Positions 28,298 through 31,659 of a stretch of 32,694 bases of DNA are shown in pieces. Source of the DNA: Deltaproteobacteria bacterium (GTDB taxonomy: Bacteria > Desulfobacterota > QYQD01). A program made the translations under genes and the position numbers. Positions within the stretch are counted from its first letter, which is position 1. Every line of letters starts with the position of its first letter. The notes beneath the pieces were generated by a model. It was not told where the DNA came from. It was given only the letters and a program-made list of their open reading frames with translations, and did not search any database. Location of the stretch: positions 1 through 32,694 of the forward strand of contig QYQD01000149.1 in the NCBI GenBank assembly GCA_007280345.1, read 5' to 3'.

Positions 28298-29626
28298 CTA
28301 TAACCCTATCCACTCGAAAACGCACCTCTGGCCCGTCGTCGCATCGCGCTTCATATCATCCCAAGACTGGTCGACGCCGCCGGGCGGAAGCGTCCCAGGA
28401 ACTACCTTTTCTATTTCCGTCACGAACCTGTCCCATGATTTCCGGAAGACGGCGGTGTAGACTTCTCCCACGCCCTGGGCCGTTCCAACACTAAAGGCAG
28501 CACCAGGGATCTTGCCCAGCAACCAGTTGATGGCCGGGGGAGCGGCTGCTTCCTTGTTGCCCTGGGCAAAGGCCATCGCAACACCGCCGACAGCGTAAGC
28601 GTCCCCGAACGAGACCGCCCGTTCCCCCAGGTTATTAACCACGTACTCTTCCGCTCCCTGCTCGATCGCGGTCCCGATCCCGTAGCTTAGCGACGCCTGG
28701 GTCATGTCGAGCATGAGAAGATCGCGGCCGTTTGTCCCTGTCCGCGTCACATCCTCGCGTGCCTGGACGATCCTGTCAAACGTACCGTCCACCGAGCCGG
28801 ATCCCTCGCAGTGCATCCGTAGCCGCAGCGCCTCCCTGTCTTCCGCGGTCAGTCCGGGGACCCCGATCGCCCGTTTCCACAAGCTGTTCCTCTTCTTTTC
28901 CAGTTCCCTGAGTTCCGCCGCTTCGGCGGGACTCAGGGAATGTTTTCGCATCAATTCGTCAATTCGCACCTGCCACTTCCGGGCCAACTTCCACTCCTCT
29001 TCCGTGGTCGCGTTTGATTTCCTCAACAGCGTGGGAATGGTGCCATTCCCGATATAGACGCCGTCCGCAGGCCCCTGCCCCGCTAAGGGAAGTTGTGCTC
29101 CGGCTCCGTCGGCCGGTCTGTTTCCTAGGAGACTGAGCGCTCCGGCCTGGGCGGTGGCGAACGCCTCATCACGCCGCTTCTGCTCGGCAATGCGCCGTTC
29201 CTTCTCCTCCTCATCCCACTTTCTCTGCAGCGCCTCCCTCTGCGCCTCGCCCGACGGTCCGGGATCTGCTTGGAGCCCCCTCATTAGGGCGTTGAGGAAA
29301 GACGACACCACCGTGGCCGCCAATTGCTGTTCAAAAGAGCCGCCGGAAGGCGCGGAACCGGTATCGGAGTCGCACTCGCACCGGGTCTCTGACAATCTGA
29401 AATCGTAACGGTATACCGGGTCGGAACGCATTGCGTCAAGGGCGGCCTGGCACTGTTCCATCGTTGCAAAGTTCCCACCGCGCTGCGGTAGCCTGATTCC
29501 CGACGCTCTATAATACGTTCTCCGGAAATCTTCCGAATATACCGCCCAGCAGCCGGACCAGGCCGGCCCGGAAGCGAAAACGAGGAATAGAATCATCACC
29601 AGGAACATGAATTTTATACGAATCAT
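28298..29626 (-). CDS. Secreted protein of unknown function
   Basis: 442 aa; signal peptide MIRIKFMFLVMILFLVFASGPAWSG; charged central coiled-coil, Gly/Ala-rich C-terminal region; first gene of a tightly packed operon. Confidence 0.65.
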   Translation of the reverse strand: MIRIKFMFLVMILFLVFASGPAWSGCWAVYSEDFRRTYYRASGIRLPQRGGNFATMEQCQAALDAMRSDPVYRYDFRLSETRCECDSDTGSAPSGGSFEQQLAATVVSSFLNALMRGLQADPGPSGEAQREALQRKWDEEEKERRIAEQKRRDEAFATAQAGALSLLGNRPADGAGAQLPLAGQGPADGVYIGNGTIPTLLRKSNATTEEEWKLARKWQVRIDELMRKHSLSPAEAAELRELEKKRNSLWKRAIGVPGLTAEDREALRLRMHCEGSGSVDGTFDRIVQAREDVTRTGTNGRDLLMLDMTQASLSYGIGTAIEQGAEEYVVNNLGERAVSFGDAYAVGGVAMAFAQGNKEAAAPPAINWLLGKIPGAAFSVGTAQGVGEVYTAVFRKSWDRFVTEIEKVVPGTLPPGGVDQSWDDMKRDATTGQRCVFEWIGL

Positions 29627-29899: not shown

Positions 29900-30232
29900 T
29901 TATGAATCATTATAGGGACGATATCGCTTTGTGGGGCGTTGACGGGAGGTTGTTTCTTCCGTTGCATAACACCCATCCGCCTTCTATCCAATCGCTTGTG
30001 CAATACTGAGGGAGTTTACTCCTTTTACACTCTTTTCCAAATCAAAAGAAAAGCAATGTAAGAAACAACGTTCCTCTTGCTCCCTCTCTGTACGTCGCCC
30101 CGCACTTTTGGATTAGACTTCCTTCAGACCCCACCTCACGATGACGCCCTTGTCCTTCTACTAGCCTTCGGCTCCGCTAAAACCTGGCTCGGGGACTTTC
30201 ACCCTGATAGTCCTATGCCATGCCCAGCACAC
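29900..30232 (-). ncRNA. 5' (domain I-like) portion of a group II intron, ORF-less/truncated
   Basis: Minus strand starts GTGTG (GUGYG 5' consensus): GTGTGCTGGGCATGGCATAGGACTATCAGGGTGAAAGTCCCCGAGCC...ACAAGGGCGTCATCGTGAGGTGGGGTCTGAAGGAAGTC, which matches recalled bacterial group II intron 5' sequences. No RT ORF follows. Confidence 0.7.
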
Positions 30233-30286
30233 GCTGCGGTTAACCAGCGCGCGGTTAGCGTGTCCGGTTGAACCGCTGGTTAGCCG
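30228..30286 (-). other. attC-like imperfect hairpin at the 3' end of the NDT/TIR-like + LMW-PTP gene
   Basis: Minus strand GGCTAAC-CAGCGGTTCAACCGGAC-ACGCTAACCGCG-CGCTGGTTAACCGCAGC-G; GCGGTT(C)AACC pairs with GGTTAACCGC leaving one bulged C; the gene's TAA stop lies within GGCTAAC. An alternative 13-bp stem (30237-30249 with 30274-30286) is followed by seven Ts on the plus strand. Confidence 0.45.
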
Positions 30287-31278
30287 TTTTTTTCTCGGAA
30301 ACCGTGCTGCCTCTCCCCCTTCAGCCGGAACACCGCTTCAATGTTTCCTTTAATTATTGTCTCGAGGCGTTGGAAGCATTCCCTATATGCCGCAATACCT
30401 CGGCCATAGGGGTCTGCAACGTCGCCGGAGGAGCCGAAAAACGCAGAAGAGAGATGCGCTTTGCCCCGAAACTGCGCGGGTATCCCCGAAAGAAGTTTTT
30501 CGTCCATTGGCAGAATCACATCAGCACGCGCAAGTAACGGGAAAGTCGCCCGGACTGTCCTGTGCTTGGCAGCATCGAGGCCGAGGCGCTCCTTGATCAC
30601 CTGCTGCGCTTCTGGAGTTATAAAGGCTTTCGTTTGCTCGATAAGCCCCGCAGACATGGGGACGATAGTGCGATCCTGCCCACCGAGATGCTGCCTTGTG
30701 ATCACGTTAGCCATGGCGCATCGACAGGTTCCTCCCGTACTTACATAGAGAACAAGGACATCGTCCTTTTCTATTCTGACGTCGAAATTGTCCGTAAGAC
30801 TTGAGAATACAAACTCACTCAGGAATCGAGGAATATCCTGCTCAAGCTGTTCATACCCATCGGAGTTATCTTCATAAATGAGACAACGATAGACGCGAAG
30901 GTCAAACGGGATGTCCGCCTCACGTTGTGTGAGGATGATCACGTTCTTCCTCAGGGCATGGGCAAGCCCTAGTTCGTACATTACGTTGGGATTCCGTCCA
31001 GTAATATCAGCTATGATCACGTTGCTTTCAGTAACACCCCGCCAGATATCCGCGAGAATGTTGCTTCCATATAGGTCGTCCGCCCGAATAGCCTTCATTC
31101 CGAAACGCTCGACAATCCTTTTGACGTGCTTTTGCCATATTCTGTCTGACCAAGACTCACCAAACGGCATTAATACGAAGCACTGGTCCTCCTTGACCGT
31201 CACGGGTTGCACCTCTTGATTGCCTTGGACGATCACTTCTGCCCTGCTCCTTTCACGTGCAGTTTGAACGGCTAACAT
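30280..31278 (-). CDS. Fusion of nucleoside 2-deoxyribosyltransferase/TIR-like Rossmann domain with LMW protein-tyrosine-phosphatase-like domain (nucleophile Cys replaced by Ser)
   Basis: 332 aa; N-terminal CFVLMPFGESWSDRIW...IRADDLYGSNILADIWRGVTESNVIIADITGRNPNVMYELGLAHALRKNVIILTQ; C-terminal VLVLYVSTGGTCRCAMANV...SAG...TPEAQQVIKERLGL...ADVILPMDEK...DVADPYGRGIAAYRECFQRLETII. A GTG at 31236 with aggag upstream is a plausible alternative start. Confidence 0.8.
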   Translation of the reverse strand: MLAVQTARERSRAEVIVQGNQEVQPVTVKEDQCFVLMPFGESWSDRIWQKHVKRIVERFGMKAIRADDLYGSNILADIWRGVTESNVIIADITGRNPNVMYELGLAHALRKNVIILTQREADIPFDLRVYRCLIYEDNSDGYEQLEQDIPRFLSEFVFSSLTDNFDVRIEKDDVLVLYVSTGGTCRCAMANVITRQHLGGQDRTIVPMSAGLIEQTKAFITPEAQQVIKERLGLDAAKHRTVRATFPLLARADVILPMDEKLLSGIPAQFRGKAHLSSAFFGSSGDVADPYGRGIAAYRECFQRLETIIKGNIEAVFRLKGERQHGFREKNG

Positions 31279-31464
31279 TATATATTATATCGACTCTATT
31301 TTTTTTCATCGGGATCTGCATGTGAAGATAATCATATAAGAATTTGCTGAATAAGACAATAAGATAACATCTATTTAAATATTCGGTGGATAGGGTTGAT
31401 AGGACAAAAAACAACATCGGCTTCTCAATCGAGAAAAGTCTACTTTTTGTTGAAAATATCAATA

Positions 31465-31483
31465 TTATGTCGGCTCGACATAA
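31465..31483. promoter_or_regulatory. Candidate operator palindrome ttatgtcg-gct-cgacataa
   Basis: Perfect 8-bp arms, 3-nt spacer, in the AT-rich divergent intergenic region between the fusion gene and the DUF457 gene. Confidence 0.35.
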
Positions 31484-31659
31484 GTACGGCAATTTATTAT
31501 CTGGAAGCGCAGTGGCCTGCGCCCGGTCCCTTATGTAGATTATTTTAATGTCATTTTATTGTACTATACAGAGTATGGTGTTATTGTGGATTAAAGCATG
31601 CATAATATTCGATGCCTTGTAATCGGCATGCTCAGGCGATCATATAGATAGAGATAATC

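Follow-up and report, generated by a model that had tools for sequence, protein, structure and literature searches.

An NDT/TIR-like domain joined to a predicted dead phosphatase-fold domain in an integron cassette of a Desulfobacterota bacterium

The fusion gene and its two domains

We analyzed a 32,694-nt stretch of DNA from a Deltaproteobacteria bacterium (Desulfobacterota; QYQD01; contig QYQD01000149.1 of assembly GCA_007280345.1; this whole stretch is hereafter called the window). The gene under study occupies positions 30280–31278 and encodes a domain related to nucleoside 2-deoxyribosyltransferase (NDT), DNPH1 and TIR proteins, followed by a domain with the fold of low-molecular-weight protein tyrosine phosphatases (LMW-PTPs). 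A first-pass annotation of the same sequence had described this fusion but omitted its strand. The open reading frame (ORF) lies on the minus strand (31278→30280), is intact over 332 aa with no internal stop, and contains all the motifs that had been cited. The annotated ATG (31278) lies partly beyond the mobile cassette that carries the gene and is supplied by the leader sequence in front of it, and the sequence GAAAGGAG is found at 31254–31247, upstream of a GTG codon at 31236. These observations suggest that this GTG is likely the native start, yielding a protein of 318 aa.

The N-terminal domain (residues ~28–165; 30784–31197, minus strand) is a sub-threshold match to the Pfam family Nuc_deoxyrib_tr (PF05014; E = 3.7e-4; 21 bits relative to a cut-off of 28.8) and matches the PADLOC model "Effector, TIR" (PDLC00733; E = 1.1e-10), which also recognizes 69 of the 75 sequences in our set of homologues of this domain. 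Five positions are invariant across an alignment of 46 sequences (P38, N98, V99, Y101 and E102) and nine others are nearly so (R65, D67, N96, G104, H107, P124, D126, R131 and Y135); every one of them is kept in the fusion protein. The putative catalytic residue Glu102 lies within NPNVMYELG and is paired with the YELG glutamate of DNPH1 in a profile alignment. The predicted structure presents a pLDDT of ~95 over residues 31–150, and its nearest folds identified with Foldseek are NDT, DNPH1/Rcl, MilB and the TIR domain of SPARTA (probability of 1.00 to NDT, DNPH1 and SPARTA TIR). These results uphold the initial assignment of this half to the NDT/TIR-like Rossmann proteins with a YELG glutamate, and suggest that the domain is likely an active N-glycosidase whose substrate would be NAD+, a nucleotide or DNA.

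The C-terminal domain (residues ~173–315; 30334–30762, minus strand) matches the Pfam family LMWPc (PF01451) above its cut-off (E = 1.4e-12) and aligns with solved LMW-PTPs using phmmer (E-values of 1e-11 to 1e-10; best matches: 4egs and YwlE). Each half was modeled from its own alignment, as a single mixed alignment had misplaced the LMW-PTPs. The C-terminal half, modeled separately, reaches a pLDDT of 89.4; Foldseek places it closest to 4egs (E = 4.7e-14; TM-scores of 0.77/0.87) and YwlE. The LMW-PTP layout first read from the sequence was thus confirmed, and structure prediction combined with Foldseek, the check suggested at the time, places both halves in the claimed folds.

The P-loop of this domain reads S180-T-G-G183-T184-C-R186-C187 (30718–30741, minus strand). 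We compared it to 17 LMW-PTPs, including an ordinary one from the same genome. The nucleophile position is a cysteine in 17/17 of these sequences and a serine in the fusion protein (Ser180; codon AGT), so that the cysteine-to-serine change reported initially is real in the assembly. Two further P-loop residues differ from the usual ones: Gly183 (mostly Asn elsewhere) and Cys187 (mostly Ser elsewhere). A single miscalled base therefore does not explain Ser180. Three other features are kept: Arg186 in the P-loop, the SAG motif and, in the DPYG loop, the general acid Asp289 (codons D289-P290; 30409–30414, minus strand), which is invariant in the LMW-PTP alignment. The domain thus retains the arginine and the aspartate of LMW-PTP enzymes but lacks their CX5R signature with its nucleophilic cysteine. 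Because the nucleophile is lost, we predict that the phosphatase is catalytically dead, and phosphate binding may have been retained. Indeed, a C7S mutant of YwlE was reportedly crystallized with a phosphorylated active-site serine (4kk4); the P-loops of this mutant and of the fusion protein share the start VSTG. By analogy, a serine version of the LMW-PTP fold can engage phosphate.

The first-pass annotation had further proposed that this domain senses a ligand or phosphotyrosine; we found no specific support for phosphotyrosine. The PX5 residue is Thr184, the type found in protein-arginine phosphatases: a threonine at this position steers YwlE and PtpB toward phospho-arginine, and an isoleucine steers toward phospho-tyrosine (PMC8001253). 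Based on this residue, phospho-arginine appears to be a better first guess for the ligand than phospho-tyrosine. A search for arginine kinases (PF00217) across the genus returned zero matches in every genome, the positive controls included.

The cassette, its leader and the adjoining intron

The gene is carried by an integron cassette, which the first-pass annotation had missed. The cassette is 1,044 bp long and runs on the minus strand from TTAGCC (31275) to a G (30232). Its attC site (30232–30285, minus strand) overlaps the stop codon of the gene. This stop codon is contained in the R'' box (GGCTAAC; 30285–30279), which is followed by the spacer CAGCG, the L'' box (GTTCAACC; 30273–30266), a 20-nt terminal part, the L' box (GGTTAAC; 30245–30239), the spacer CGCAGC and the G at 30232. 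The pairing of L'' and L' leaves one extrahelical base, as is typical of attC sites, and the R' box itself has been displaced by an intron. At the other end, the cassette starts at the boundary G^TTAGCC; the boundary word GTTAGCC pairs with the R'' box at 7/7 bases, which excision of the cassette as a circle would demand. The junction of the excised circle folds into a full attC hairpin. A palindrome downstream of the gene had been considered as a terminator and was dropped, since it pairs with the 5' end of the cassette in the excised circle.

A simple scan for attC sites was unspecific (6 hits in the real DNA relative to 1–6 in shuffled sequences), and it is the boundary-complementarity test that carries the weight. 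An exact boundary complementarity together with a perfect L box was observed in 4 of 11 leader-linked cassettes. In the controls, at most one mismatch was found for 90/2000 random GTTNNNN words and for 15/106 words swapped between loci. The overall anatomy is firm, and the evidence that the gene sits in an integron cassette is strong.

A leader repeat of ~240 bp with TATAAT boxes (31276–31515, minus strand) ends at G^TT and abuts the 5' end of the cassette. Copies of this leader are present in five congeneric genomes (G000–G004), with 5–15 copies per genome (e.g., L135, L138, L139, L147–L152 and L154). Each copy that we read is followed by a different accessory gene (trypsin-like, ParE, PemK or unknown), and several of these genes have an attC site behind them. 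Another cassette gene, in G003, resembled DUF4062 by eye; Pfam gave no match and we make no claim for it. The leader looks like an attI-like site or a promoter platform, with many integrase-less ones per chromosome. No integron integrase (TIGR02249) was matched above the cut-off in the source genome, which is 81% complete, and only one congener, G002, presented an integrase above the curated cut-off (L142:5499–6833, minus strand; 376.8 bits). Downstream of this integrase, candidate attC sites accompany a nucleotidyltransferase-like gene and several methyltransferase-like ones.

The position of R' in the attC site is occupied by the 5' part of a degenerate group II intron (29986–30232, minus strand), matched by Rfam RF02001 at 30145–29986 (41.8 bits). 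The boundary at 30232 is common to the copies in sister genomes, where the intron follows hairpins, several of which are attC-like. A near-identical intron start (GTGTGYYGGGCATGG) was found in the window and in L135, L136, L137, L145, L146, L153 and L154. These introns share the orientation of the cassette genes; known IIC-attC introns are oriented opposite to the genes (PMC7923331).

Distribution of the fusion and related systems

The same architecture, which the first-pass annotation had suggested looking for in other genomes, was not recovered in the collections that we searched. No second fusion was found by a pattern-based scan of 84,980 species represented by one genome each, a scan that detects close relatives only. 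Likewise, no protein with both halves was found in IMG/VR (searched with the full protein and with the C-terminal half alone), in plasmids or in phages, nor among about 1,500 genomes searched whole (its own phylum and three other groups). The gene is also missing from four congeneric genomes. One locus, L096, was examined as a second fusion and rejected: it consists of an ordinary cysteine-bearing LMW-PTP and an unrelated upstream reading frame. The fusion is therefore a singleton so far, and its rarity is real, if not absolute.

The relatives of the N-terminal domain are modular, and the domain sits at either end of the protein. Its partners include the defense-type or signaling domains HATPase_c (L078), guanylate cyclase (L084), TPR-S and AbiJ_NTD5, as well as S1 (L010), and one homologue also matches the Pycsar cyclase models of PADLOC. 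Genes of type I restriction, PglZ/BREX-type, Lamassu-type and phage-type flank some of these relatives. Three loci deserve mention in their own right. L084 (856–1839, minus strand) joins the NDT/TIR-like domain to a class III cyclase domain, and such cyclase-fused relatives suggest that a signal synthase and an effector-type domain can occur in one chain. In L078 (1483–2580, plus strand), the partner is a histidine-kinase-type ATPase domain. Finally, L033 (7989–8411 and 8411–9070, plus strand), from a Methanophagales archaeon, presents two NDT/TIR-like genes in direct tandem.

We compared the fusion to known systems. The NDT/TIR-like NADase effectors (the TIR domains of CBASS and Pycsar, DUF4062 "Swarozyc", the TIR domain of SPARTA and NDT-AbiJ) share its Rossmann fold and conserved glutamate, and they likewise place a small effector domain beside variable partners. 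In contrast, the partner here is an LMW-PTP fold rather than a cyclase, Ago, STAND or portal-binding module, and the present protein is known from its sequence and models. The nucleotide N-hydrolases DNPH1/Rcl and MilB present the same fold with an aligned catalytic glutamate, but the known ones are single-domain proteins, whereas the fusion has a partner domain and a different N-terminal motif (CFVLMPFG). The closest solved relatives of the C-terminal half are YwlE and 4egs. The protein-arginine phosphatases YwlE and PtpB share its LMW-PTP fold, PX5 threonine, P-loop arginine and DPY acid; the fusion differs from them by Ser180 in place of the cysteine, by G183 and C187, and by its location behind an NDT/TIR-like domain. 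Finally, defense genes found in chromosomal or mobile integron cassettes are similarly organized as single-gene cassettes with an attC site and a compact product, but here no integrase adjoins the cassette, a dispersed leader repeat stands in front of it and the attC site is occupied by an intron remnant.

Possible function and significance

The effector residues are kept in the N-terminal half; in the phosphatase half, the nucleophile is gone but the arginine and the acid remain. The most economical reading of this pattern is a dead binder coupled to a live effector. We tentatively propose, as the most likely explanation, that the protein is an accessory N-glycosidase or NADase effector under the control of a ligand-binding, catalytically dead domain of phosphatase fold; an anti-phage role is plausible. 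The cassette would encode a self-contained two-domain accessory protein whose N-terminal domain would use Glu102 to cleave the base or the nicotinamide off a nucleotide or NAD+. The LMW-PTP domain, unable to finish catalysis with Ser180, would use its P-loop to hold a phosphorylated ligand; this binding would restrain or release the N-terminal enzyme. The host, having acquired the gene as a mobile cassette, would be defended through the depletion of nucleotides or NAD+. Both folds and the residue pattern are consistent with the sensor-gated effector envisioned in the first-pass annotation. The window itself is not a defense island; as neighbors of the fusion gene it contains TPR, YdjM, a partial ORF that resembles aminoacyl-tRNA synthetases, and unknown genes. 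One of the genes in the window (28298–29626, minus strand) encodes a protein of 442 aa whose start resembles a signal peptide and for which Pfam returned no match at E ≤ 1.

As a best guess, the defense role is drawn by analogy from the family (its PADLOC model, and partners such as AbiJ and TPR-S) and from the known anti-phage content of integron cassettes. In 2013, a role as conflict effectors was predicted for fusions of NDT domains to AbiJ-NTD1 (PMC3710099), and a 2026 preprint describes DUF4062 as a TIR/NDT-like domain with varied auxiliary domains whose NADase activity is triggered by the phage portal (PMC13174449). Cassettes of chromosomal integrons have been documented as a reservoir of defense genes, with ~10% of the tested Vibrio cassettes found to be anti-phage (PMC12409362). 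Several points weigh against the proposed effector. This same rate of ~10% makes cassette status weak evidence for defense, and cassettes also bear metabolic and toxin-antitoxin genes, including in the sister copies analyzed here. Moreover, around the relatives of the N-terminal domain, the defense models match distal control genes as well, so that near and far genes were not separated. The full-length model, which would bear on the interface between the domains, reaches a pTM of 0.51 and is not confident for the C-terminal half. Lastly, no homologue of the whole fusion was recovered that would show selection on the architecture.

It is unlikely, yet worth considering, that the protein is a metabolic or repair enzyme unrelated to defense, in which a DNPH1/MilB-like hydrolase of (damaged) nucleotides would work with a phosphate-binding phosphatase-fold partner. 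DNPH1 and MilB, two enzymes whose substrates are nucleoside 5'-monophosphates, are among the best matches of the N-terminal domain by profile and by structure, and the cassette lies outside any defense island. However, most of the nearest relatives by sequence have several domains, the TIR-effector model outperforms the Pfam NDT model, and the substrates of LMW-PTPs are phosphorylated side chains of proteins rather than free nucleotides. It is rather unlikely that the roles are swapped, with the NDT/TIR-like domain serving as a non-toxic sensor of a nucleotide signal and the output coming from the phosphatase-fold half or from a partner bound to it. Such a sensor-like layout is seen in the relatives that adjoin the output domains HATPase_c, guanylate cyclase and S1, but the C-terminal domain of the fusion has no nucleophile and the N-terminal domain keeps every invariant residue, Glu102 included.

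The singleton status and the three P-loop changes might instead reflect a decaying or fortuitous fusion of two genes within one cassette, whose phosphatase half is drifting without function, and fusions of cassette ORFs have been reported (PMC4670013). We consider this quite improbable: all 332 codons are intact, Arg186, SAG and Asp289-Pro-Tyr are kept, and the fold of the C-terminal domain is confidently predicted. The serine variant could also remain an active phosphatase using Cys185 or Cys187, the two cysteines left in the P-loop, as an alternative nucleophile. This is very improbable, as neither of them occupies the first P-loop position, which is the catalytic one in LMW-PTPs (PMC8001253). 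A more speculative version of the gated effector, to which we give little credence, is a phosphate-trap switch: the Ser180 domain would take the phosphoryl group from a phospho-arginine or phospho-tyrosine protein, or hold this protein tightly, without being able to release it, and this long-lived state would toggle the NAD+- or nucleotide-cleaving domain during infection. The engineered YwlE C7S (4kk4) would then be an accidental model of this trap.

The domain families of the protein are known, and their architecture is unseen elsewhere in the collections searched. Many activators of TIR- and NDT-like effectors are known, but a dead phosphatase-fold regulator is undescribed in the literature that we searched. 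If the proposed gating is true, protein phosphorylation would be linked to the depletion of NAD+ or nucleotides within one small mobile gene. The finding adds to the evidence for compact effectors in integron cassettes, here in a poorly studied lineage whose cassettes stand behind a dispersed leader.
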